Below are positions 33,956-46,331 of a stretch of 64,000 bases of DNA, one piece after another. Both the position numbers and the translations under genes were made by a program. The notes beneath the pieces were generated by a model. It did no database searches and was not told the origin of the DNA. It saw nothing but the letters and a program-made list of their open reading frames with translations. Source of the DNA: Flavobacterium sp. MK4S-17 (GTDB lineage: Bacteria > Bacteroidota > Bacteroidia > Flavobacteriales > Flavobacteriaceae); contig NZ_WWEP01000014.1 of the NCBI RefSeq assembly GCF_009848495.1, forward strand, positions 1 to 64,000, given 5' to 3'. The stretch's first letter is position 1. Each line of letters opens with the position of its first letter.

Positions 33956-34345
33956 TTACTTCTGGTAAAACTCAACAGGCAGCCCATCAGGGTCGGATAT
34001 AAAGGTAAATTCTTTTCCTGTAAACTCATCAACCCGTATCGGTTCTGCTTCTATATTATGTTTGCTAAGCCACTCAACAGCCTTGCTTATGCTGTCTACC
34101 TCAAATGCAATATGCCGTAAGCCTGCAGCTTCCGGAAGTGAAACACGGGCAGGCGGATTTGGAAATGAAAATAACTCAATAGTATAAACACCATGTATTG
34201 CCAAATCAAGCTTAAAGGAATCACGCTCTTTCCTGTAATGCTCTTTTATAATTGAAAAGCCCAATATCTGGGTATAAAACAGTTTAGATTTTTCATAATC
34301 AGAACAGATTATGGCTATGTGATGTACTTTATTGATTTTTAGCAT
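33956..34345 (-). CDS. VOC (glyoxalase/bleomycin resistance) family protein
   Basis: 129-aa single-domain VOC protein with two beta-alpha-beta-beta-beta repeats. KVHHIAIICSDYEKSKLFYTQILGF opens the first. The second contains GLRHIAFEVDSISKAVEWL and ends DPDGLPVEFYQ. Putative metal ligands are the His near 9, a Glu near 56, His near 78 and the final Glu. It resembles the YaeR/SMU.1112c group rather than classic glyoxalase I; substrate unknown. It lies 10 bases downstream of the next gene, so the two may be co-transcribed. Confidence 0.85.
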   Translation of the reverse strand: MLKINKVHHIAIICSDYEKSKLFYTQILGFSIIKEHYRKERDSFKLDLAIHGVYTIELFSFPNPPARVSLPEAAGLRHIAFEVDSISKAVEWLSKHNIEAEPIRVDEFTGKEFTFISDPDGLPVEFYQK

Positions 34346-34355
34346 TCACTAGTAA

Positions 34356-35555
34356 TTAAAAAATCCTGTATCCTAATATTATGCCGACAGAACTTAGATT
34401 AGCTTCCCAGCCAATCTCATTTTCCAAAGGATTATCATTAAAGGCATATCTTACTTCAGCACTGTATCTTTTATAATTATAGCCTGCACCAATAACAAAT
34501 GTAGAAGTTTGCCTTAAGTCAATCGTAACAGAATCGTAATAACTTAATTTCGAGTCATTAATGGCAAAAGACATAGCAAAAGCAATATCAAGAAATAATT
34601 TCGATTGATCATTTAAATACATATAATGCCGGGCACCAATAGGAAGTTGTATAAATGTATAATTCATTTCTAAGTCATATGGCCCAACGTTACCTTTATT
34701 TTTATACTGCTGAAAATTTGGATCGATAAATAAAGACCATTTATTTCGGTTATAAGGCAATACATACTCCAGTTCTGCCCCAAGCCTGAATATTGTTTTA
34801 TCGCTAAACTCTAAACTTTTAAACAGTGCAAGCTCATTAGAAACTTTAAATGTTGCGAAATTTATACCGGGAGTAATTTTTAAATGCAGGCTGCCTTTGT
34901 TTTGCGTTGCAGTAAAATCCTTAAATAAATCATCATTAGTATTGTACTCTACAAAAATTTTCACCAAGTCATCTTTTTTATAGCTGATTTTTATAAATCT
35001 TTCTATGTTAGAAATCTTGTCCTTCATATTATTGTAAAGCTGTTCCTGGAAAGCATTGTTGTCTTTTTTTATACTACCGTTACTATTGTAAACTGTTTCG
35101 CCTTTAATCTTATACTTCCTGTATACTAATTGTTCAGGTTTACTATGATCACTCTTACTGAAAAAATATCTCATTAACTTACCATCTTCATATTGATATA
35201 AGTTAAGGCTGCCTTCAACTAAAACTTTAAGGAATAATGTTTCCTTTTTCCATTCCGGTTCGGGAGAACTCATAACAGTTACATTACTACTCGGTCGATC
35301 AATATCTACATTAAATCTTAAAAATTTGTGTGATTCTACGCTAAATTCTTTTACGGTTTTTATTGTATTAATCTTTGGTTCATCATTTTCGTTTAATTTA
35401 TAGCTAAATTCTGTAGGTGTATTTTTCCATCCTGTATTCTTTATAAGGCATTCTGTTTTATTGCCGCTATTGTCAATAAAATACCCTGGCTGATATGTAA
35501 TTTGTGAAATGGCTGTGAAACTTGTAAATAACAGTAATAGTAATAACTTTTTCAT
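34356..35555 (-). CDS. Outer-membrane beta-barrel protein, hypothetical
   Basis: 399-aa protein with a signal peptide (MKKLLLLLLFTSFTAISQ). Residues ~20-200 form a soluble region that begins ITYQPGYFIDNSGNKTECLIKN, a stretch common in flavobacterial proteins of unknown role. From about 220 the sequence shows alternating strands with glycine and aromatic residues (LRLGAELEYVLPYNR-like; IQLPIGARHYMYLN; FVIGAGYNYKRYSAEVRYAFND; GIILGYRIF) and ends in Phe, as expected for an outer-membrane barrel. No named family is recognised. It is divergent from the TonB receptor gene. Confidence 0.72.
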   Translation of the reverse strand: MKKLLLLLLFTSFTAISQITYQPGYFIDNSGNKTECLIKNTGWKNTPTEFSYKLNENDEPKINTIKTVKEFSVESHKFLRFNVDIDRPSSNVTVMSSPEPEWKKETLFLKVLVEGSLNLYQYEDGKLMRYFFSKSDHSKPEQLVYRKYKIKGETVYNSNGSIKKDNNAFQEQLYNNMKDKISNIERFIKISYKKDDLVKIFVEYNTNDDLFKDFTATQNKGSLHLKITPGINFATFKVSNELALFKSLEFSDKTIFRLGAELEYVLPYNRNKWSLFIDPNFQQYKNKGNVGPYDLEMNYTFIQLPIGARHYMYLNDQSKLFLDIAFAMSFAINDSKLSYYDSVTIDLRQTSTFVIGAGYNYKRYSAEVRYAFNDNPLENEIGWEANLSSVGIILGYRIF

Positions 35556-35681
35556 TTGTAGGTTAATTTGTTTTATTGGTAATTATGTTTAAAATTAAAA
35601 TTGTATTGGTTTTAGTAGCATTGATTTATGTATTGATATATCTATGATTTTTGTTTGGCGGGCTAAAATAAAATTTTTATT

Positions 35682-35753
35682 TCAATTCATCCTGTTCATT
35701 CTACAATTGGGTAATTTTTTTTATTATTCGTTTACAGGTTACTGCAACTTTGT
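35682..35753 (+). promoter_or_regulatory. LytTR-type operator and promoter of the TonB-dependent receptor gene
   Basis: Two 9-bp repeats, TCAATTCAT (35682-35690) and ACAATTGGG (35703-35711), lie 12 bp apart. Each fits 8 of 9 positions of the known LytTR-family consensus [TA][AC][CA]GTTN[AG][TG], whose sites occur as pairs with a 12-13-bp spacer. A core promoter TGCAACTTTGT (35743-35753; -7-like CAACTTTG) follows, and the ATG is 21 bases further on. The operon at 39422 has the same arrangement with identical spacing, which is the main support for the call. Confidence 0.65.
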
Positions 35754-35774
35754 CCCAACAAAACCAATACAATT

Positions 35775-36548
35775 ATGAAGCGGACAATTATTTTTCTAAT
35801 ATTATTCCTGGCTTATTCAGCAGCAGCAGCACAAACATTAATTTCGGGCAAGGTTACAGATGAAAAAGGCAATCCGCTGCCTGCAGCCAATATATACCTG
35901 GATGGTACCTATGATGGTACTACATCGGCAGAGGATGGCAGCTTTTCTTTCAAGGCAAGTGTAAAGGGGCAGCAGGTTCTGGTTATAAGTTTCCTCTCTT
36001 TTGAAGAGATAAGGCAGGATATAGTAATTGAAGAGTACCAGCCTAAAACATTTAAAATGCGGGAAAATGTAAATACCCTTGATGCCGTTGTAATATCGGC
36101 TGGTACTTTCCAGACAGGCGATAATACAAAAGTTACTGCATTAAAGCCGCTGGATATTGTAACAACTGCGGGCTCGGCTGGCGATATTATTGCCGCACTG
36201 CAAACATTACCCGGCACACAAACCGTAGGCGAAAGCGGCAGATTATTTGTTAGGGGAGGTGAGGCAGATGAAACACAAACCTTTATAGATGGCATACGGG
36301 TAGCACAGCCTTATGGGGCTGCGGCCAATAACATTCCAACACGTGGGCGCTTTTCTCCTTTTCTTTTTAAGGGAATGACATTTTCTACAGGTGGATATTC
36401 TGCAGAATATGGTGAGGCACTTTCCAGCGTTTTATTGCTTAATACTATAGATGAACCGGTGCAGGAGCAAACCGATATTTCATTAATGACTTTACGAACT
36501 AGGATTGGGGCTTGGCAATACACAAAAATGGGAAAAAAGTTCCCTTAG
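35775..36548 (+). pseudogene. TonB-dependent receptor, N-terminal part (frameshifted)
   Basis: 257 codons encode a signal peptide (MKRTIIFLILFLAY..AAAQ) and a CarboxypepD_reg-like domain (~20-105: LISGKVTDEKGNPLPAANIYLDG). The TonB plug domain follows (~125-235: SAGDIIAALQTLPGTQ, GRLFVRGGEADETQTFIDGI). Normal receptor sequence runs to about SLMTL at codon 240, then changes to an unrelated tail (RTRIGAWQYTKMGKKFP) and a stop. The barrel continues in the +1 frame at 36505. One extra base (or two missing bases) between about 36492 and 36510 explains this. Either the gene is broken in this strain or the base is a sequencing error. Confidence 0.85.
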
Positions 36549-37938
36549 CTTTAATGCTGCATATATTAATCTTGAACCTTACCAGAAGGTAATACAGCAA
36601 AATGTTACATGGCATAAACCGTATCAATCATTATCTGGGGAAACAGTGTATCGTTATAAATTTGCCAATGGTTTGTTTAAGGCTTATGCAGCCTTTGACC
36701 ATGCTGATTTTAGCCTTGATCAGGACGATATCAACCAGCCGGAACCTGTGCGCACAGCTATAACCAATAACAACTTATATGTAAATACTTCCTATAATGG
36801 CATATTGGGTAACCAATGGGCCATAACAACCGGAATGAGTTATGGTTACAGCCATAATGCTATCGGGCTTAACCGCAATGAAGTTACCAATGGAGAGCAC
36901 AGCTCGCACCTTAAGCTGAAATTAAGAAAGAAAATTACAAACCGCTTTAAGCTTTCCTTCGGTGCAGATTATTTTCTAACTGATTTTAACGAAATGTACA
37001 AAGAGCCGCAAGAGTTTGAATTTAAAAGCGGTTACAATAATAATATTGCGGCAGCCTATGCCGAGGCAGATATATTTTTCTCTAAAAAACTGGCTTTAAA
37101 AGCAGGCGTACGCAGTTCCCACTCTGCTATGGTTGGTACTACTACTATAGAACCACGGGCTGCCTTTGCCTATAAATCAGGTTCAAACAGCCAGATTTCG
37201 CTGGCTTATGGTAATTTTTACCAAACTCCAGGGCAGGATTATCTTAAATATTACAATAACCCCAACTATGAAAAAACTGCCCATTATATTTTTAATTACC
37301 TGTACAACACCGATTCATACACATTAAGGGCTGAGGCATACTATAAAGATTACGGCAGCCTTGTAAAATATGATACAGGCACTGCACAATACAACTCTGA
37401 TTTCAGTAATACAGGCATTGGCTATGCAAAAGGTATCGATGTTTTTTGGAGAGACAACAAATCGTTTAAAAATATGGAATACTGGGTATCTTATTCGTTT
37501 ATTGACAGCGAGCGCGATTACCGGAATTATGAATATGGTGCTACGCCATCCTATATTGCTAAACATAATTTTTCTTTGGTTACAAAATACTGGATTCAAA
37601 GCCTTAGGTCTCAGTTGGGTGTAACCTATACCTATAATTCAGGAAGGCCGTACAATAACCCTAATGAGTCGGCTTTTATGAATGGAAAAACAAAAAGCTA
37701 TAATAATCTTAGCCTTAGCTGGGCATGGCTGGTAAGCCAGCAAAAAATATTATACCTGTCCGTTTCAAATATTGCAGGCTCCGATAATATATTTGGCTAC
37801 AACTATGCCAGCACTCCTGGCCCTGATGGTACTTTTGCGCGCCAGCCCATAACACAGGCTGCCGACCGTTTTGTTTTTATTGGCTTTTTCTGGACAATAA
37901 GCGACAACAAAAAAACAAACCAACTGCAAAATCTGTAA
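36505..37938 (+). pseudogene. TonB-dependent receptor, C-terminal barrel part (frameshifted)
   Basis: This frame continues the receptor barrel without a signal peptide or plug: GLGNTQKWEKSSLSFNAAYINLEPY picks up where the first part breaks off. Repeated outer-membrane strands follow (LALKAGVRSSHS, ISLAYGNFYQTPGQDYLKYY, YWVSYSFIDSERDYRNY, LGVTYTYNSGRPYNNP), with a C-terminal region ending near FIGFFWTISDNKKTN. The apparent TTG start at 36505 is simply where the frame becomes open; in frame, GAACTAGGATTG just before it also reads as sensible receptor sequence. Joined, the two parts give a receptor of about 720 residues, a usual size. Confidence 0.85.
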
Positions 37939-38003
37939 TTTATGTATTTGGGTATTATAGGTTAGTTAACAAATACTGGCACAGTTACTGTATTATTGGC
38001 AGT

Positions 38004-39140
38004 GTGAAAAAGAAAAGTTTAATTTATTTATCAGCGGCTGTAGCTGTGCTATTGCTAACGTTCTCATGCCCCGGTTGTTCAGGTATTTCTAATGCTGTAA
38101 CAAGTGTGGCTGACGCTATAACAAAACCTACTGCAAGAGAAGTTTATAAAAGGGAATTTAAGGAAAATATGATGCTGTATGAGGCATGGATAGAGGCATA
38201 TAACAGTGCTTTAAAGGATAGCCTCAATATTTCGCTTCCTTATGGTGAAAAAGGTACATTTAATCCTTTAAAAGAAACAGCTTATAGTTATAACCTAAAC
38301 CTGCAGGAAGGAGAGGTTTTGGTGACAGAAGTTATTAAAGATTCTTCTCAAAGGGTTTTTATAGACTTATTTCAGGATAATAAAAATGAAAAACGTTCGG
38401 AATTAAATCAGCACAGGCTTGAATTTGCAATACAATCATCAGGTATTTACAAATTAATGATTCAGCCTGAAATAGCTGCCAACAGTAATTTTTTTATAAG
38501 CATAACTAAAAAACCGCAATATAATTTTCCCGTAGCAGGAAAAAGTAACGGGGCTATAGGAAGTTTTTGGGGTATGGAGCGCGAAGGCGGCAAACGCCGC
38601 CACGAAGGCATTGATATTTTTGCACATAAAGGCACACCCGTAGTAGCGGCCACAAATGGAATTATAGGTTTTACGGGAGAAAGGGGCATAGGTGGAAAAC
38701 AGGTTTGGCTTCGCGATGGTATTTTTGGCAAGTTCTTATACTATGCCCATTTGGACAGCATAAATGTACAATCCGGCTTGAGGGTAAAAATGGGCGATAC
38801 GCTGGGATTTGTGGGAAATACAGGAAATGCAAAATTTACCCCGCCACACCTGCATTTTGGAATTTATAAAGCTACAGGTGCAGTTAATCCGCTGCCTTAT
38901 GTTTATAAAGCTGAACAGATACTACCTGAAAATTATCCTGCTGATTTCAAAACTACCTTGCTAAAGGTTAAAAGAACTGCTAATTTAAGGCAGGGGCCTT
39001 CTCTCAACTACTCTGTATTAGGCAGGCTTAATAGTAACAATACAATAATATTACTTGGGCAGCATAAAGAGTGGCTGCATATAATTACACCACAAGGCAG
39101 TAAAGCATTTTTACATAAAAGCCTGGTTAATAATAAATAA
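38004..39140 (+). CDS. M23 family peptidoglycan endopeptidase with SH3 domain, probable lipoprotein
   Basis: 378-aa cell-envelope protein. It starts with GTG at 38004, giving MKKKSLIYLSAAVAVLLLTFSCPG, a probable lipoprotein signal with Cys22. Residues ~185-300 are a peptidase M23 (LytM) domain with Zn ligands in RHEGIDIFAH and PHLHFGIY and the intermediate YYAHLD. The C-terminal ~65 residues form an SH3b domain (KRTANLRQGPSLNYSVLGRL). The family cleaves peptide cross-bridges in peptidoglycan. It lies 65 bases after the receptor gene with no obvious promoter, so it may be read through from that promoter. Confidence 0.88.
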   Translation: MKKKSLIYLSAAVAVLLLTFSCPGCSGISNAVTSVADAITKPTAREVYKREFKENMMLYEAWIEAYNSALKDSLNISLPYGEKGTFNPLKETAYSYNLNLQEGEVLVTEVIKDSSQRVFIDLFQDNKNEKRSELNQHRLEFAIQSSGIYKLMIQPEIAANSNFFISITKKPQYNFPVAGKSNGAIGSFWGMEREGGKRRHEGIDIFAHKGTPVVAATNGIIGFTGERGIGGKQVWLRDGIFGKFLYYAHLDSINVQSGLRVKMGDTLGFVGNTGNAKFTPPHLHFGIYKATGAVNPLPYVYKAEQILPENYPADFKTTLLKVKRTANLRQGPSLNYSVLGRLNSNNTIILLGQHKEWLHIITPQGSKAFLHKSLVNNK

Positions 39141-39314
39141 TGTATTTCCTTTACTTTAACCTTATTCAAAGTTGTATGGTTAGCAAGTATTCTTCCCTCC
39201 GTTTAATTAGTTTTATAAAATCATATTTCCGGCATTATTAGTGAAATATCATTTTTAACTCCCTGCTTTATAAGAGCCTTGATACTATAATTTTAAAATA
39301 CTTTATCTTTTTTT

Positions 39315-39386
39315 ACAGCTCATCCGTAAAAATCTACAGTTCGGTAAAACACTTTTTTAAAGGAGTTGTTTATGGTGCAACTTTGT
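39315..39386 (+). promoter_or_regulatory. LytTR-type operator and promoter of the 2TM/LytTR operon
   Basis: ACAGCTCAT (39315-39323; 8 of 9 consensus positions) and ACAGTTCGG (39336-39344; full match to [TA][AC][CA]GTTN[AG][TG]) are 12 bp apart, the classical LytTR spacing. TGCAACTTTGT (39376-39386) is the core promoter. Positions 39320-39386 align without gaps to 35687-35753 upstream of the TonB receptor: TCATCC, N7, TCTACA[AG]TT[GC]GGTAA, N28, TGCAACTTTGT. The operon ends with a LytTR regulator gene, so autoregulation is likely. The rest of the 281-base gap (39141-39314) holds no gene. Confidence 0.7.
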
Positions 39387-39421
39387 TTCATCAAAATACA
39401 ACAACCTAAAAATTAAATATT

Positions 39422-40048
39422 ATGGTACGAGTTATTACAGCAGTAGTTATTTTTTTTGTGAGCACAATGCTTAACGCGCAATCCCAGTATGAAAGCGGAA
39501 TGCAAAAAGCATTTTCATTATGGACTGAAGGCAAGCCCGCCGAAGCTTCGGCTATGTTTGAAAGGATAGGGGCAGCGGAGAAGGACAACTGGCTCCCACA
39601 ATATTATGTGGCACTTGTTAATACCACGCAGGCATTTACAACTAAAGACAAAGAAAAAGTTAATGCGCTTTTAAGCAAAGCACAGCAAGCGCAGGAAAAA
39701 GCTGAAGCACTTTCTTCCGGCAACCCGGAGCTTATGGTAATGCAGGCAATGATACATACGGCATGGATTGCTTTTGACCCTATGACAAACGGAATGAAAC
39801 TTTCGGGTACTGTAAACGGGCTTTATGCAAAAGCAATGCAAGTAGCCCCTGATAACCCGAGGGTAGTATTGAGTAAAGCTGAATTTGATATGGGTTCGGC
39901 GGCTTATTTTGGCACAGATACAAAACCGATGTGTGCTGAGGTTGAACGTGCTGTTGAACTTTTTGCTACCTTTAAACCTGAATCTCCCTTTCATCCTCAA
40001 TGGGGGCTGGACAGGGCAAAGCAAGTACTTGAAAATTGTAAAAAATAA
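39422..40048 (+). CDS. Secreted/periplasmic TPR-like protein, first gene of the 2TM/LytTR operon
   Basis: 208-aa protein with a signal peptide (MVRVITAVVIFFVST..NAQ). The mature part is helical: SQYESGMQKAFSLWTEGKPAEASAMFERIG at the start and LYAKAMQVAPDNPRVVLSKAEFDMG near 135 look like TPR motifs. Two or three Cys residues lie near the C-terminus (PMCAEVERAV, LENCKK). No enzymatic motif is seen. It is six bases upstream of the histidine kinase gene and follows the LytTR-type promoter, so it belongs to the same operon. It may be an envelope partner of the sensor; that is inference. Confidence 0.8.
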   Translation: MVRVITAVVIFFVSTMLNAQSQYESGMQKAFSLWTEGKPAEASAMFERIGAAEKDNWLPQYYVALVNTTQAFTTKDKEKVNALLSKAQQAQEKAEALSSGNPELMVMQAMIHTAWIAFDPMTNGMKLSGTVNGLYAKAMQVAPDNPRVVLSKAEFDMGSAAYFGTDTKPMCAEVERAVELFATFKPESPFHPQWGLDRAKQVLENCKK

Positions 40049-40054
40049 TACGCT

Positions 40055-41401
40055 TTGAAAACTTATATCAGGGAAATATTCCGTTCGCTAATAGCAGGTA
40101 CACTTTTGTTCCTGACAGTAGTACTGGTTTTTACAGTATTAGGCAAAATAAACTGGGAAACTTTTAGCCTGGCCGAATGGTATGCCGAATTCATGTTGTT
40201 TGCAATACCGATATTTTTGGCTAATTCACTGGTGTTTATAAAGCTGGACAGGGTATTCGGTACGGGAAATATGTCGTTAAAAAGAGTTGCCATAGGCTTT
40301 GTGGCTTCAGGCATGGTAACTATGATTTTAGTTTTTTTGCTGTTGCTGCTGCACTCACTTTTTATTGAAGGCAATACAATACAGGCTTTTTTTGCTGCGC
40401 ACAGCCTTGGCAATTACAGGTTTACCTTATTGCTTACCCTTATTGTTAATACAATAGTCCATATATTTTACTTTTACAGGAGGTATCAGGAAAACCGTGT
40501 AAAAGCGCAAAAAATAGTGGCGGGTGTTGCTTCGGCACAGTTTGAATCGCTTAAAAACCAGATAGACCCTCACTTTCTTTTTAACAGCCTTAATGTGTTA
40601 AGCTCGCTGATAGAAGAAAATCCGGAAAGTGCACAGCGTTTTACAACGTCGCTTTCCAAAGTGTACCGTTATGTGCTGGAACAGCGGGATAAAGAACTGG
40701 TAAGCGTACAGGAGGAACTGGCTTTTGCTAAAACCTATATGAATCTGCTAAAAATGCGTTTTGAAAATAGTATTTCTTTTGAAATCCCACAGGATTTTAA
40801 TAATCAGGAGGCCAGGGTAGTACCACTGTCTTTACAACTGCTCCTTGAAAATACTATAAAGCATAATGTTGTCAGCCAGCAACGCCCGCTTCATATAAGG
40901 ATATTTGAAGAAAAAGGTTACCTGGTGGTACAAAATGACCTCCAGAAAAAAGAAGTGTTACAGGACAGGAAAGGTGTAGGGCTTCAAAATATAGTAAGCC
41001 GGTATGCAATATTAACCAGCAGGAATGTGCTGGTAGAACAAACAGAAAAACATTTTACAGTGAAATTACCAATTTTAACTAAACAAGTAAGTATAATGGA
41101 AACACAAATAAATACAGATAAAGAAAGTGCTTATTACAAAGCACAGAAAAAAGTGGAAGAAATAAAAGGTTTTTACGGTAACCTGACATCCTATGTAGTA
41201 GTGATTTTAGGGCTTATGGTACTTAACCTTTATACCAGCGCAGAGCATTTATGGTTTATTTATCCTGCTATTGGCTGGGGTGTAGGGGTTATAATACATG
41301 GAATGAGCGTGTTTAACTATATGCCGTTTGCCGGCCGGGACTGGGAGGAAAGAAAAATACGCGAGTACATGGAAAAAGAGAAAAATAATAAATGGGACTA
41401 G
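40055..41401 (+). CDS. LytS-type sensor histidine kinase fused to a 2TM domain
   Basis: 448-aa inner-membrane sensor kinase. It starts with TTG at 40055, six bases after the previous stop. Four transmembrane segments (~12-145) precede a His_kinase (LytS-type) domain: phospho-acceptor His173 in QIDPHFLFNSLN, LLLENTIKHN (~263-272) as N-box, and KGVGLQNIVSRY as G-box. The kinase ends near 345. Residues 348-448 form a 2TM module: YYKAQKKVEEIKGFYGNL, two membrane segments, then GWGVGVIIHGMSVF and RDWEERKIREYM. Met348 (ATG 41096) lies exactly at the join, as if a separate 2TM gene had been fused; it could also be an internal start. Confidence 0.9.
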   Translation: MKTYIREIFRSLIAGTLLFLTVVLVFTVLGKINWETFSLAEWYAEFMLFAIPIFLANSLVFIKLDRVFGTGNMSLKRVAIGFVASGMVTMILVFLLLLLHSLFIEGNTIQAFFAAHSLGNYRFTLLLTLIVNTIVHIFYFYRRYQENRVKAQKIVAGVASAQFESLKNQIDPHFLFNSLNVLSSLIEENPESAQRFTTSLSKVYRYVLEQRDKELVSVQEELAFAKTYMNLLKMRFENSISFEIPQDFNNQEARVVPLSLQLLLENTIKHNVVSQQRPLHIRIFEEKGYLVVQNDLQKKEVLQDRKGVGLQNIVSRYAILTSRNVLVEQTEKHFTVKLPILTKQVSIMETQINTDKESAYYKAQKKVEEIKGFYGNLTSYVVVILGLMVLNLYTSAEHLWFIYPAIGWGVGVIIHGMSVFNYMPFAGRDWEERKIREYMEKEKNNKWD

Positions 41402-41404
41402 AGC

Positions 41405-41698
41405 ATGGATTATAATAAAGTTGCCTATGACAGGGCCAGAAAAAAGGTAAAGGAAATCAAACATTTTTACATTAACCTTAGTCTTTACCTAACCATTATT
41501 CCTGTACTTGTGTTTATAAACCTCTATTTAACACCCGAAGCCTACTGGTTTCAGTTTCCAATGTTAGGTTGGGGCACCGGTGTGGCTGTACATGGTATGT
41601 CAGCACATAATTATATTCCTTTTTTAGGGAAAAACTGGGAAGAGAAAAAATTAAAGGAATTGATTGACAAGGAAATTCAGAAAAGAAATTACTTATGA
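41405..41698 (+). CDS. 2TM domain protein
   Basis: 97-aa small membrane protein made of one 2TM module (PF13239 type): basic helix YDRARKKVKEIKHFYINL, membrane helix, short turn, second helix with GWGTGVAVHGMSAHNYIPF, and charged end KNWEEKKLKELIDKE. It begins three bases after the kinase stop and overlaps the next gene by four bases (ATGA). Its near identity of layout with the kinase tail suggests it could pair with the kinase in the membrane. The function of the 2TM domain is not established. Confidence 0.88.
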   Translation: MDYNKVAYDRARKKVKEIKHFYINLSLYLTIIPVLVFINLYLTPEAYWFQFPMLGWGTGVAVHGMSAHNYIPFLGKNWEEKKLKELIDKEIQKRNYL

Positions 41699-42297
41699 AA
41701 GATAATACTACACAAAAAGCTTATAAAGAAGCAAGGAAAAAAGTGAAAGCTATAAGGGGTTTTTATTTTAACCTGTTAGTATATATTGCTGCTCATTTAG
41801 TATTTATATATTTTAATTTAATTTATAACCTTCAGTTTAATTGGTTCTGGTATTCTATACTATTATGGGGAATAGGAATGGCGGTGTATGGTATGATAGT
41901 ATTTGACAGTATGCCATTTATGAAAAGAAACTGGGAAGAACAAAAATTAAGAGAGCTGATTGGTAATAAGGAAGAGAAAAAAGGAAACGATGCTGAAGGG
42001 CAATTGAATGAACAAATACTGTACAATCGCGCAAAAAAGAAAATCCATGCCTTAAGAAATTTTTACAGGCACCTTACAGCTTATATAGTGGTTATTATTC
42101 TTTTACTGGTACTACTGTGGGTAGGGTTTCAAAAAAAGCAGGACTTATTTATTTATATTGCTTATGGTGCTGCTTTTGGCTGGAGTATAGGATTGCTAAT
42201 ACATATTTTTAAGGTATTTGGAGTTTCATTCCTTATGGGTAAAAATTGGGAAGAACTAAAACTTATAGAGCTAATACAGGAAGAAAATAAAAAATAA
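41695..42297 (+). CDS. Tandem 2TM domain protein (two modules)
   Basis: 200-aa protein with two consecutive 2TM modules. The first (1-~98) has YKEARKKVKAIRGFYFNL, two membrane segments and RNWEEQKLRELIG. The second (~103-200) has YNRAKKKIHALRNFYRHL, two membrane segments and KNWEELKLIELIQEE. In the second module the usual IHGM motif reads IHIFKVF. It overlaps the previous gene by four bases and is followed after four bases by another 2TM gene. Four membrane segments are predicted in total. Partner binding is inference. Confidence 0.87.
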   Translation: MKDNTTQKAYKEARKKVKAIRGFYFNLLVYIAAHLVFIYFNLIYNLQFNWFWYSILLWGIGMAVYGMIVFDSMPFMKRNWEEQKLRELIGNKEEKKGNDAEGQLNEQILYNRAKKKIHALRNFYRHLTAYIVVIILLLVLLWVGFQKKQDLFIYIAYGAAFGWSIGLLIHIFKVFGVSFLMGKNWEELKLIELIQEENKK

Positions 42298-42301
42298 GGT
42301 C

Positions 42302-42634
42302 ATGAACAATAATACATTAAGGACAGTTGAGGAGCAGCTGCGTTATGACAGGGCAAGGAAAAAAGTAAAGTCTATAAAAGGCTTCTATATGCACTTTACA
42401 GCTTATTTGGTAGTAAACATCATATTATTGCTAATGCACTGGGAAGATATGAAACCGGGAGAAGAATTTTTTACCTTTCAGGCATTCAGTACAGCCATTT
42501 TTTGGGGAATAGGTGTTTTGTTTCATGCTTTGGGAACGTTCAGCAGTAATATTTTACTGGGTAATAACTGGGAAGAAAGGAAGATAAAGGAAATGATGGA
42601 AAGAAATCAGGGCAACCGTACTAAATGGGAGTAA
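42302..42634 (+). CDS. 2TM domain protein
   Basis: 110-aa membrane protein with one 2TM module: YDRARKKVKSIKGFYMHFTAY, first membrane segment, a longer loop (HWEDMKPGEEFFTF), second segment with FWGIGVLFHALGTF, then NNWEERKIKEMMERN. The ATG at 42302 is four bases after the previous stop codon. It is the last 2TM gene before the response regulator and the fifth 2TM module in the operon counting the one on the kinase. Confidence 0.88.
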   Translation: MNNNTLRTVEEQLRYDRARKKVKSIKGFYMHFTAYLVVNIILLLMHWEDMKPGEEFFTFQAFSTAIFWGIGVLFHALGTFSSNILLGNNWEERKIKEMMERNQGNRTKWE

Positions 42635-42644
42635 AATAAGTAAG

Positions 42645-43403
42645 ATGAATGTAATAATAATTGAAGACGAAAAACCGGCTGCAAGACTGCTGCAACGCAA
42701 ACTGCTAAAACTGGGCATAAACGCAGAAACCATGCTTCACTCTGTAGAGGAAGCTATAAACTGGTTTTCAGGAAATGCGCACCCTGACCTTATTTTTTTG
42801 GATATACAGTTGTCTGACGGGCTTTCTTTTGAAATATTTGAAACGGTTACTATTAACAGTGCCATTATTTTTACTACGGCTTATGATGAGTATGCACTGA
42901 GGGCATTTAAGCTAAACAGTATAGACTATTTATTAAAGCCTATAGATGAAGATGACCTTGAAACAGCTGTAAATAAATACAGGGAATACCGGCCACAACC
43001 GCAAAACCTTTCTCTTGATTTTGAGCAGATAAAAAAGATGCTGGTAAACCCTTTGGAGAAAAGCTACAAAAAGCGTTTTGCCATAAAAATAGGACAGCAC
43101 CTTAAAATGGTAAATGTTGATGATGCCGAATGTTTTTTCAGCGAAAATAAGGGGACTTACATACACACCAGGGATAATAAAGACTACCTGCTGGAAAGTA
43201 CTTTGGAGCAGCTTGAAAACGAGCTTGACCCGGCAAAGTTTTACCGTGTTAGCCGGAAGCATATAGTGTGTATAAACACCATTAAGGATATAGTGGTTTA
43301 TACCAATTCAAGGCTTAAGGTTATATTGCCAACTTATAATGCGGATGAAGTAATAGTGAGCCGGGAGCGGGTAAACGATTTCAGGGACTGGCTTGGCAGT
43401 TAA
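42645..43403 (+). CDS. LytTR family response regulator
   Basis: 252-aa cytoplasmic response regulator. The receiver domain (1-~120) has the acidic pair E7-D8, phospho-acceptor Asp53 in LIFLDIQLSDG, Thr in IIFTTAYDEYA and Lys in DYLLKPID. The LytTR DNA-binding domain covers ~145-250 (FFSENKGTYIHTRDNKDYLLESTLEQLE, KFYRVSRKHIVCINTIK). It is the cognate partner of the LytS-type kinase by operon position. LytTR proteins bind paired 9-bp repeats, and such pairs lie upstream of this operon (39315-39344) and of the TonB receptor gene (35682-35711). Confidence 0.92.
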   Translation: MNVIIIEDEKPAARLLQRKLLKLGINAETMLHSVEEAINWFSGNAHPDLIFLDIQLSDGLSFEIFETVTINSAIIFTTAYDEYALRAFKLNSIDYLLKPIDEDDLETAVNKYREYRPQPQNLSLDFEQIKKMLVNPLEKSYKKRFAIKIGQHLKMVNVDDAECFFSENKGTYIHTRDNKDYLLESTLEQLENELDPAKFYRVSRKHIVCINTIKDIVVYTNSRLKVILPTYNADEVIVSRERVNDFRDWLGS

Positions 43404-43430
43404 AACAAATCTCCTTTGAGGAGATTTGTT
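43404..43430 (+). terminator. Hairpin ending the LytTR operon
   Basis: A 12-bp perfect stem (AACAAATCTCCT and its complement) around a 3-nt loop starts immediately after the regulator stop codon. The T run after it is poor, so termination is probable but not certain. Confidence 0.7.
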
Positions 43431-43502
43431 ACATTTCTGCAAAAATAGTATTACAGGCGGTGCTTTGCATATTTTATATTTACAGATTACAATTCTGTGA
43501 AT

Positions 43503-46331
43503 ATGAAGTTTACATACAGCTATATCCTGCTATTTATCTACACACTTTGTTTCGGTCAGGAAAATTCACCCCGTGAAAAAATACTTATAGATGATGACTG
43601 GCATTTTGCCTTTGGGCATCCGTCTGATGTTGCCAAAGACTACAACCATGCGACAGGCTATTTTTCATACTTGGCAAAAACCGGTTATGGCGATGGCCCT
43701 GCTGCACCTGATTTTGATGACAGGGCCTGGAGGCAGTTAAATTTACCGCATGACTGGGCTGTAGAACAGCCCTTTAGCGAAGAAGCAAGTTTTAGCCATG
43801 GTTTTAAGGCATCGGGTAAAGGTTATCCTGAAAAGAGCATTGGCTGGTACCGCAAGACAATTACTATTCCCAAAAGTGATTTAGGCCGTAGGATTACGCT
43901 ACAGTTTGATGGTGTGTTCCGTAATTCGAAAGTGTGGCTTAACGGCCACTATTTAGGTACTGAGGAAAGTGGTTATGATGCGTTTGAATATGATATTACC
44001 GAGTATATAAATTATGATGGCAATAATGTTATAGCTGTAAGGGTTGATGCCGGGATGGAGGAGGGATGGTTTTATGAAGGGGCAGGTATTTACCGCCATG
44101 TATATCTCTGCAAAACAAATAAACTGCATATAGCCACTAATGGTACATATGTGGTATCTGCGCTTAATGGTGATAATGCACAAGTAGCAGCCACCGTTTT
44201 TATTGAAAATCATAAAATCGATACTGCTGGTGAAGTTGAGGTTGTAAATACTATATATGATTCAGCAGGAAAAAAGATAGCTGCTGAAATTTCAAAGCAT
44301 GTAGTTCCCGGATATTACAAGACTGTTGCATATAAAATGTCATTAAAAGTTTTTAAGCCAAAGCTTTGGGGTATTTATAACCCTGAATTATACAGGCTTG
44401 TTACAGTGCTTAAATATAAGGGCAATATTATCGATGAGTACCAAACAACTTTCGGTATAAGGACAATACATTTTGATGCTGAAAAAGGTTTTTTTCTGAA
44501 TGGAAAACCTTTAAAACTAAAAGGCACAAACAACCACCAGGACCATGCAGGGGTAGGGACTGCATTGCCTGATGAATTGCAGTATTACAGGATTAGGAAA
44601 CTTAAGGAGATGGGTAGTAATGCCTACAGGTGCTCGCACCATCCGCCTACGCCGGAGCTTCTTAAAGCCTGTGATGAACTTGGTATGCTGGTTATTGATG
44701 AAACAAGGCTGATGGGTGTAAATGAATATCATTTAGGCAGCCTGAAAAAGATGATTGAGCGTGACAGGAATCACCCAAGTGTAATATGCTGGTCTGTAGG
44801 GAATGAAGAATGGGCTATAGAAAATAGCATAACAGGAGAGCGGATAGCACAAACCATGGAGGCATTCACAAAAAGCCTCGACAGTACACGGCCTGTAACT
44901 GTAGGCATTAGCGGAGGTTTTAAAAGCGGTATATCATCGGTTGTTGAGGTGATGGGGTATAACTATCTGGGTAATGGCGATATAGATGCACACAGGGGTC
45001 AGTACAAACAGCAACCGGGCATGGGCACCGAAGAGGGTTCCACCTTTGCCACAAGGGGAGTATATTTTACAGATAATGAAAAACATTACCAAAGTACCTA
45101 TGATAAAAAACCACGTCCCTCTTTTTACAGTATAGAAGAGGGATGGAATTTTTATGCGGCACGCCCTTACCTTGCGGGGATGTTTATATGGACAGGTTTT
45201 GATTACCGGGGCGAGCCGACTCCTTATGGCTGGCCTTCGGTTACTTCCTATTTTGGGATGATGGACGTTTGCGGGTTTGCAAAAGATAACGTGTATTATT
45301 TAAAATCATGGTGGGGAAAGGGAGATGTATTGCATATATTGCCCCACTGGAACTGGGAGGGAATGGAAGGCAGGAAAATAGATGTTTGGGTATATTCCAA
45401 TTGTGATGAGGTGGAATTATTTTTAAACGGAAAAAGCTTGGGGAAAAAGAAAATGCAGGTTAACAGCCACCTGGAATGGAATGTGCCTTACAGCCCGGGC
45501 AAGTTAAGTGCTGTTGGGTATAAAAATGGAAAGAGAGCGCTGCAGGCGGAAAGGGTAACAACAGGCAGGGCAGATAAAATTAAATTGACCCCGCACAAAA
45601 ATAAGTTATCCGGCAGTACTGATGTAGCTGTTATTACGGTGGAAGTAACAGATAACAAAGGCAGGCATGTGCCAACTGCCAGTAATGAAATACAATTTAC
45701 TATAAAAGGCCCGGGTAAAATAATAGGTGTGGGTAATGGAAATCCTACTTCGCTGGAACCGGATAAATTTTTAGATAGCATAACGTTATATCCTATAAAT
45801 GATTTAAAAGAGCAGCCTTTGGCTACAGCCGGACTTCCATCTTTACCGGATTTTAATTTAAAGGACTGGAGGGAGGCATTTAAAGACAGGGATTATAAAA
45901 ACCTGCCACCGGCATTTGTATATGAGGGTATATTTACCTTAACAGGAAGTTTTAAAGATGCAGAAATAACGTATTACTATAAAAATTTAGGTACTGATAA
46001 GGCTGTTTTTATTAATGGGATAAGGGTAATGCCTGATGACAAAGATACTCTGAAATTTAAATTGCCCGCTCCTATTTTAAAAGAGGGTAACAATACGGTT
46101 GCTGTAATAGCGCCACCGATACATAAAGCACATGAATGGGATAAAATAAATACAGACCCGGGAGTGATACAGGTTATTAAAAAAGCCCCGCAGTGGAAAA
46201 GGAAATTATTTAACGGATATGCGCAGTTAATTATACAGGCAGATAAAAATAAAGGTAAGATTGAGATAACTGCAGAAGGTGCAAAGCTAAAAGGAACCAC
46301 CTTGGTAATTCAATCTGCCGGAGGGGAATAA
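43503..46331 (+). CDS. Glycoside hydrolase family 2 protein (beta-galactosidase-like, DUF4982)
   Basis: 942-aa secreted glycosidase; ATG 43503 gives a clean signal peptide (MKFTYSYILLFIYTLCFGQ), while a GTG two codons upstream is also in frame. Domains in order: GH2 sugar-binding (~25-215, LPHDWAVEQPFSEEA), GH2 Ig-like (~220-330), TIM barrel (~330-610), DUF4982-like domain (~620-690), a Big-like domain and a C-terminal beta region. The acid/base Glu lies in SVGNEEW near 434. The probable nucleophile Glu is in GTEEGSTFATRG near 508. The family cleaves beta-galactosides, glucuronides and similar bonds; substrate unknown. No polysaccharide-utilisation partner (SusC/D) lies beside it. Confidence 0.88.
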   Translation: MKFTYSYILLFIYTLCFGQENSPREKILIDDDWHFAFGHPSDVAKDYNHATGYFSYLAKTGYGDGPAAPDFDDRAWRQLNLPHDWAVEQPFSEEASFSHGFKASGKGYPEKSIGWYRKTITIPKSDLGRRITLQFDGVFRNSKVWLNGHYLGTEESGYDAFEYDITEYINYDGNNVIAVRVDAGMEEGWFYEGAGIYRHVYLCKTNKLHIATNGTYVVSALNGDNAQVAATVFIENHKIDTAGEVEVVNTIYDSAGKKIAAEISKHVVPGYYKTVAYKMSLKVFKPKLWGIYNPELYRLVTVLKYKGNIIDEYQTTFGIRTIHFDAEKGFFLNGKPLKLKGTNNHQDHAGVGTALPDELQYYRIRKLKEMGSNAYRCSHHPPTPELLKACDELGMLVIDETRLMGVNEYHLGSLKKMIERDRNHPSVICWSVGNEEWAIENSITGERIAQTMEAFTKSLDSTRPVTVGISGGFKSGISSVVEVMGYNYLGNGDIDAHRGQYKQQPGMGTEEGSTFATRGVYFTDNEKHYQSTYDKKPRPSFYSIEEGWNFYAARPYLAGMFIWTGFDYRGEPTPYGWPSVTSYFGMMDVCGFAKDNVYYLKSWWGKGDVLHILPHWNWEGMEGRKIDVWVYSNCDEVELFLNGKSLGKKKMQVNSHLEWNVPYSPGKLSAVGYKNGKRALQAERVTTGRADKIKLTPHKNKLSGSTDVAVITVEVTDNKGRHVPTASNEIQFTIKGPGKIIGVGNGNPTSLEPDKFLDSITLYPINDLKEQPLATAGLPSLPDFNLKDWREAFKDRDYKNLPPAFVYEGIFTLTGSFKDAEITYYYKNLGTDKAVFINGIRVMPDDKDTLKFKLPAPILKEGNNTVAVIAPPIHKAHEWDKINTDPGVIQVIKKAPQWKRKLFNGYAQLIIQADKNKGKIEITAEGAKLKGTTLVIQSAGGE

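Follow-up and report, generated by a model that had tools for sequence, protein, structure and literature searches.

A shared direct-repeat module before a HusA-like/LytTR operon and a TonB receptor gene of Flavobacterium sp. MK4S-17 is very probably the operator of the operon's own regulator

Within the 64,000-nucleotide stretch of DNA analysed here (the window), two promoter regions on one strand, separated by 3.6 kb, carry the same layout, one upstream of an operon that ends in a LytTR response regulator gene and the other upstream of a TonB-dependent receptor gene, which raises the question of what this shared module is and which protein would read it. Segments 39320-39386 and 35687-35753 align without gaps, with 47 of 80 positions identical over the 80 bp counted from the first repeat; a TCATCC block, a TCTACA-TT-GGTAA block and a CAACTTTG box recur in both at equal spacing. 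The gap-free alignment and the 9-bp repeats exactly 12 bp apart, as claimed by a first-pass annotation, were both read as described. The two candidate operators are:

39315..39347, + strand: candidate operator of the operon, direct repeats ACAGCTCAT (39315-39323) and ACAGTTCGG (39336-39344), 12-bp gap, GGTAA-type tail
35682..35714, + strand: candidate operator of the receptor gene, direct repeats TCAATTCAT (35682-35690) and ACAATTGGG (35703-35711), 12-bp gap

Each of the four 9-mers matches the LytTR-family consensus at 8 or 9 of 9 positions, so the claimed fit is real, but it is not significant as evidence: the window holds 12 consensus-fitting pairs with a 12-bp gap, where 12.7 would be expected and 20 simulated sequences had from 6 to 21. 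Generic consensus fit was rejected as evidence because chance yields equally many pairs, and the case rests instead on the longer module that both promoters share and on how it is conserved. Taken by itself, the short block ACARTTSGGTAA with one mismatch was at chance level too (3 found versus 1.81 expected). When the layout was searched for in the whole genome (2,951,637 bases, 99.92% complete), a degenerate 33-bp pattern gave exactly 2 matches with 0 mismatches, a near-identical 33-bp pattern with up to 3 mismatches again gave 2, and a backwards control pattern gave 0 in both scans. When 3 mismatches were allowed, a related pattern matched twice in the 64-kb window versus 0 times in 100/100 shuffles.

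The genes of the locus and the repeat that closes it are as follows:

35775..37938, + strand: TonB-dependent receptor gene (CarbopepD_reg, Plug and barrel by Pfam), frame broken between about 36490 and 36548
38004..39140, + strand: M23 peptidase with SH3 domain (Pfam), between receptor and operon
39422..40048, + strand: P4, first operon gene, predicted all-helical HusA-family haemophore-like protein (structure model and HusA matches)
40055..41401, + strand: LytS-type histidine kinase fused to a C-terminal 2TM domain (Pfam His_kinase PF06580, E 1.7e-25, and 2TM)
41405..41698, + strand: 2TM protein (Pfam)
41695..42297, + strand: double 2TM protein (Pfam)
42302..42634, + strand: 2TM protein (Pfam)
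42645..43403, + strand: response regulator with receiver and LytTR DNA-binding domain (Pfam PF04397, E 3.1e-20; PF00072, E 3.5e-13)
43404..43430, + strand: perfect 11-bp inverted repeat directly 3' of the regulator gene (direct reading)

The inverted repeat is likely the operon terminator, judged from its sequence and place, and is absent from the computed list of terminator-like elements. Species differ in how many 2TM genes lie between kinase and regulator (41405-42634 in the window), as if these genes had multiplied by tandem duplication. In 2/80 loci (L063 and L069) a homologue of the M23 peptidase is found no more than 1.3 kb upstream of the operon. The annotation had placed a TonB receptor gene behind the second module; such a gene is present, but in this genome it is split by the frame break into two frames (35775-36548 and 36505-37938), and in related loci it is one long frame. 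No second receptor copy was found in this genome at E <= 1e-20. The break may reflect a true pseudogene or an assembly error; because the reading frame is broken, this target may be dead in this genome. The receptor structure model was poor (pLDDT 66.6) and matched many TonB receptors, BtuB first, and in sequence searches only a short SusC-homologue chain matched; with a poor model and unspecific matches, we claim no cargo from the structure. No NCBIfam family reached its cut-off with the receptor, the kinase or the HusA-like protein. A divergent outer-membrane-barrel-like gene (34356-35555, - strand) lies back to back with the receptor promoter, and its homologues (42-47%) adjoin the receptor in L065, L083 and L103.

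A Pfam search with P4 found no family at E <= 0.001, and its export signal was judged by eye. The structure model of P4 is all-helical (pLDDT 91.1), and its best match among solved structures is HusA (TM 0.79/0.81; Z 21.8, rmsd 2.8, 190 aligned; the next row has Z 16.4). A profile of 38 sequences matched the HusA entry 6bqs (PG_2227) with E 5.3e-16 over profile positions 21-206 of 207, and the next match had E 0.016. By sequence and modelled fold alike, P4 is thus placed as a HusA-family member, and the HusA homology of the first operon protein is new here. HusA is described as the porphyrin-binding haemophore of P. gingivalis with groove residues F80, P126, W130 and Y164 (PMC6173696). In the profile alignment to HusA, F80 is kept in 38/38 sequences and P126 in 37/38, and the positions of W130 and Y164 are glycine in 38/38, which makes a porphyrin cargo uncertain. 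RhuH, a haemophore of Riemerella, was considered as a P4 relative and rejected, its fold being described as different from that of HusA (PMC11967795). For HusA, the proposed TonB receptor is HusB (PMC6173696). Because P4 is a HusA homologue, the core targets resemble an uptake pair made up of a HusA-like protein and a receptor.

P4 orthologues were found in 21/36 other genomes sampled in the genus, and the module stands upstream of 20 of these 21 with 0 to 6 mismatches to the consensus pattern. The exception is the homologue in L024 (36% identity, 8 mismatches); by the same pattern, the three homologues in L025-L027 (other families, 10 or 11 mismatches) likewise had no clear module upstream. 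A profile, R1, was built from the operon promoters of 20 other species, excluding the window, all receptor promoters, L024 and L025-L027. R1 recovered both window sites, the operon site with 53.9 bits (per-genome E 5.3e-14) and the receptor site with 26.2 bits (E 3.8e-5), without any receptor promoter in its training. Weak R1 matches at 38252 (E 0.12) and 38453 (E 0.61) in the window, and a third match in the genome at E <= 0.1, were treated as chance.

In the Flavobacterium-type locus set, the best 80 of 468 related loci, R1 at E <= 0.01 found 152 sites. Eighty of 80 operons carried one, a count that is partly by construction since at least five loci come from training genomes, as did 67/67 scorable receptors; one site was a stray. 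Two further receptors lay at locus edges and were not scored, and eleven loci had no receptor. In ten genomes whose receptor is not linked to the operon (L078, a short contig, was left out), a receptor relative was found elsewhere in 10/10, and each had a same-strand R1 site at its 5' end (10/10, E 4e-13 to 2.5e-5). It is thus the receptor gene, and not the location, that the site accompanies. The search of relatives that the annotation had proposed as a check thus bore out the module before operon and receptor alike, linked or unlinked. Because the same site precedes the same genes in many relatives, the modules are very probably regulator binding sites. Four loci (L107, L094, L095 and L126) have two R1 sites about 500 bp apart upstream of the operon instead of one, and L195 has two divergent sites upstream of the receptor. 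Eight loci (L143, L144, L145, L146, L149, L152, L153 and L154) combine kinase and LytTR genes with an R1 site, no HusA-like gene being detected in them; the operator may thus predate the HusA-like gene or be independent of it.

As to which protein would bind there, the operon ends in the LytTR regulator gene in nearly all loci with enough sequence. Among 61 genus genomes (site at E <= 1e-4, LytTR orthologue at E <= 1e-70), 44 had both, 3 the site only, 1 the regulator only and 13 neither (Fisher p 1e-9, ignoring kinship). The family sample of 149 genomes (orthologue at E <= 1e-60) gave 112, 2, 6 and 29 in the same order (Fisher p 1e-22, again ignoring kinship), with a regulator relative in 118/149. 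A strong site was absent from 13/16 genus and 29/31 family genomes without a detected orthologue. The annotation's link between the site and the regulator at 42645 is thus supported in both samples at the level of gene content; the species in these samples are not independent, and the co-occurrence is partly built in because the operon's own promoter counts as a site. Two of the three site-only genus genomes are assemblies of 220 and 240 contigs, and in one site-only case (G060) the site precedes an unrelated-looking gene. G081, the genome with the regulator only, shows a weaker site (E 0.0012) ahead of the kinase gene, and G019, which has neither, holds one LytTR gene with internal stops.

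The most serious rival is that the module is the site of another regulator, a LytTR paralogue or an unrelated factor, that travels with the operon. This genome has 6 LytTR domains, that of the regulator at 42645 among them, and the site occurs without a detected orthologue in 2/149 family and 3/61 genus genomes. Yet the 13 genus genomes with neither orthologue nor strong site keep 1 to 6 LytTR domains, and the site stands before the operon in 80/80 loci, the operon ending in this very regulator gene in nearly all loci with enough sequence. We consider such a substitute regulator unlikely.

The arrangement of the promoters bears on the mode of action. Relatives conserve TTT at a place, about -35 to -33, where one would look for TTG. 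The promoter elements are:

39355..39357, + strand: TTT at about -35 to -33, conserved in relatives (column conservation)
39378..39385, + strand: operon -7 box CAACTTTG, one base off TAnnTTTG, at a fixed offset in relatives
35745..35752, + strand: receptor promoter -7 box CAACTTTG (sequence reading)

The -7 consensus TAnnTTTG is described at -12 to -5 (PMC9723704). With the -7 box taken at that position, the repeats span -75 to -46 with their centre at about -60, a placement that reads as an activator-site layout, and the operon transcript is predicted to start at about 39390. We compared 78 operon promoters (the 80 without L078, which lacks flank, and L121) and a receptor set of 68 (67 receptor promoters plus one L121 operon site). 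Over the 33 repeat positions the information reached 43.9 bits (operon) and 38.4 bits (receptor set), versus only 4.7 and 7.3 bits in the 60 bases upstream of the repeats, all these values being inflated because the species are related. TTTG stood at a single fixed offset in 72/78 operon and 65/68 receptor-set promoters, and the complete TAnnTTTG at the fixed offset in only 34/78 and 16/68. A TTCATCAAAA stretch immediately 3' of TTTG is common to the receptor promoters. A Sigma-70 scan of 39130-43600 gave 11 promoter-like sites versus 14.5 expected and is uninformative for this promoter type.

The fixed TTTG box, together with the TTCATCAAAA stretch shared by the receptor promoters, is what a strong or common house-keeping promoter type with no regulator site could also offer. 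Such a promoter should number in the hundreds, but there are two good copies here and 1 to 8 R1 matches (E <= 0.1) in each of the 61 genus genomes; conservation peaks in the two repeats, far upstream of the core promoter, and genomes without a detected orthologue mostly have no strong site (13/16 genus, 29/31 family). We regard this reading as very improbable. Functionless leftovers of a local duplication, suggested by the closeness of the two sites on one strand, are less probable still, as the module is kept across species and its flanks are not, and unlinked receptors retain the site in 10/10 genomes. Just as little credence goes to a transcribed RNA element, leader or riboswitch: conservation spans about 86 bases before a coding gene, but Rfam gave no match at gathering score in 34000-44000, and because the -7 box lies at its 3' end, most of the stretch should be upstream of the transcript.

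We therefore return to the regulator of the operon itself, and think it very likely, from sequence comparison, that both modules are operators of the LytTR regulator at 42645, driving its own operon and the receptor gene. The mechanism we infer would begin with the kinase at 40055 phosphorylating this regulator, a dimer of which would bind the two 9-mers, which are spaced by two helical turns and cover about -75 to -46. Bound there, it would bring in RNA polymerase at a promoter whose -7 box is usable and whose -33 element is poor, amplify its own operon and switch on the TonB receptor gene. The core output would probably be an exported haemophore-like protein and its outer-membrane receptor, which accessory envelope proteins may join in other genera.

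The module is present in 113/148 family genera sampled and, in an order-wide sample, in 22/119 genomes (13 Flavobacteriaceae, 8 of a second family and 1 of a third). The annotation had proposed a compact regulon: in this genome only two sites were found, as it held, but the regulon is not a local one. The predicted regulon is compact in this genome and, across the family, old and widespread. Further targets were surveyed in the best 60 among the listed family sites without a locus, the 28 top loci not being counted, with operon and receptor recognised by BLAST and other targets by eye. Among these best 60 listed sites, 21 head the operon directly, 9 head it with a small gene in front of it and 15 precede a receptor gene; 4 stand before a lone DUF2141-like, 2 before a DUF2807-like and 3 before a serine-hydrolase-like gene, all these further targets being in other genera. 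The remaining 6 comprise one site each before an ABC transporter, an outer-membrane-like and a small membrane protein gene, one with only a distant regulator gene and two without an open frame. Pfam confirmed DUF2141 and DUF2807 in one gene each from the 28 top loci. Hits before envelope genes had been named in advance as support for a regulon, and envelope-type genes are indeed among the further targets. DUF2807/Toastrack points to an envelope-stress reading (PMC11237479), which is possible for the accessory genes. In three large-genome species (L138, L139 and L140) there is a third R1 site, upstream of a gene for a small membrane protein, about 2 kb before an ftsH-looking gene; the protein from L138 had no Pfam match.

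These results yield a specific operator, a regulator and a set of targets for a two-component system that is common in the family. In Flavobacterium and its relatives they also connect a HusA-family protein, of a kind studied in Porphyromonas for carrying porphyrin, with a TonB receptor and a regulator dedicated to them, and the cargo of the HusA-like protein and the receptor is now directly testable. In the open-access papers searched, no description of such a regulon was listed.

AgrA, like the regulator proposed here, has a cognate kinase and activates its own expression. We know of no HusA-like protein, receptor or 2TM genes in the AgrA system. AgrA repeats at agr P2/P3 of Staphylococcus aureus centre near -60, and the likeness extends to a LytTR response regulator, tandem direct repeats near that position and a sub-optimal core promoter, as described in PMC4227749; unlike AgrA, the present system belongs to a different phylum and has a promoter type with a -7 TAnnTTTG.

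LRS operators (HdrRM, BrsRM) are described as 9-bp repeats, mostly with 12-bp gaps, their position being strongly biased towards 10 bp upstream of -35 (PMC6193735). The 9-bp repeats, the 12-bp gap and the position close upstream of the -35 region recur here, the repeats ending at -46 and the conserved TTT lying at -35 to -33, both positions being reckoned from the -7 box. Further likenesses are small membrane proteins encoded in the operon and autoregulation, here predicted (PMC6193735). An LRS regulator lacks a receiver domain, whereas this one has one, a histidine kinase is encoded in the operon, and the membrane proteins are PF13239 2TM proteins. Receiver and LytTR domains, a LytS-type kinase in the operon and repeats two helical turns apart place the system among LytTR two-component systems. 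We tentatively entertain the wider idea, itself rather doubtful, of an ancestral Flavobacteriaceae envelope regulon in which a 2TM-fused LytS kinase and a variable number of stand-alone 2TM proteins form a two-component/LRS hybrid that would sense porphyrin or a related hydrophobic ligand and switch on the HusA-like carrier, the TonB receptor and accessory envelope proteins.

In F. johnsoniae coevolved with Burkholderia, FJOH_RS09515 (LytTR) or the next-numbered histidine kinase gene is reported mutated in 5/5 replicates (PMC10197871); the adjacent locus tags argue against that pair being this operon. BtsSR resembles the present system as a LytS/LytTR pair switching on an uptake gene, btsT in its case (PMC10653868, PMC5552118), and differs in cargo class; the regulator here scores 100 bits, far below the NCBIfam cut-off of 246 for BtsR. 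Unlike HusA/HusB of Porphyromonas gingivalis, the system has glycine at the W130 and Y164 positions and predicted LytTR control; like that pair, as described in PMC6173696, it has a protein homologous to HusA over nearly its full length, in sequence and modelled fold, and a TonB receptor gene that lies nearby or bears the same operator.
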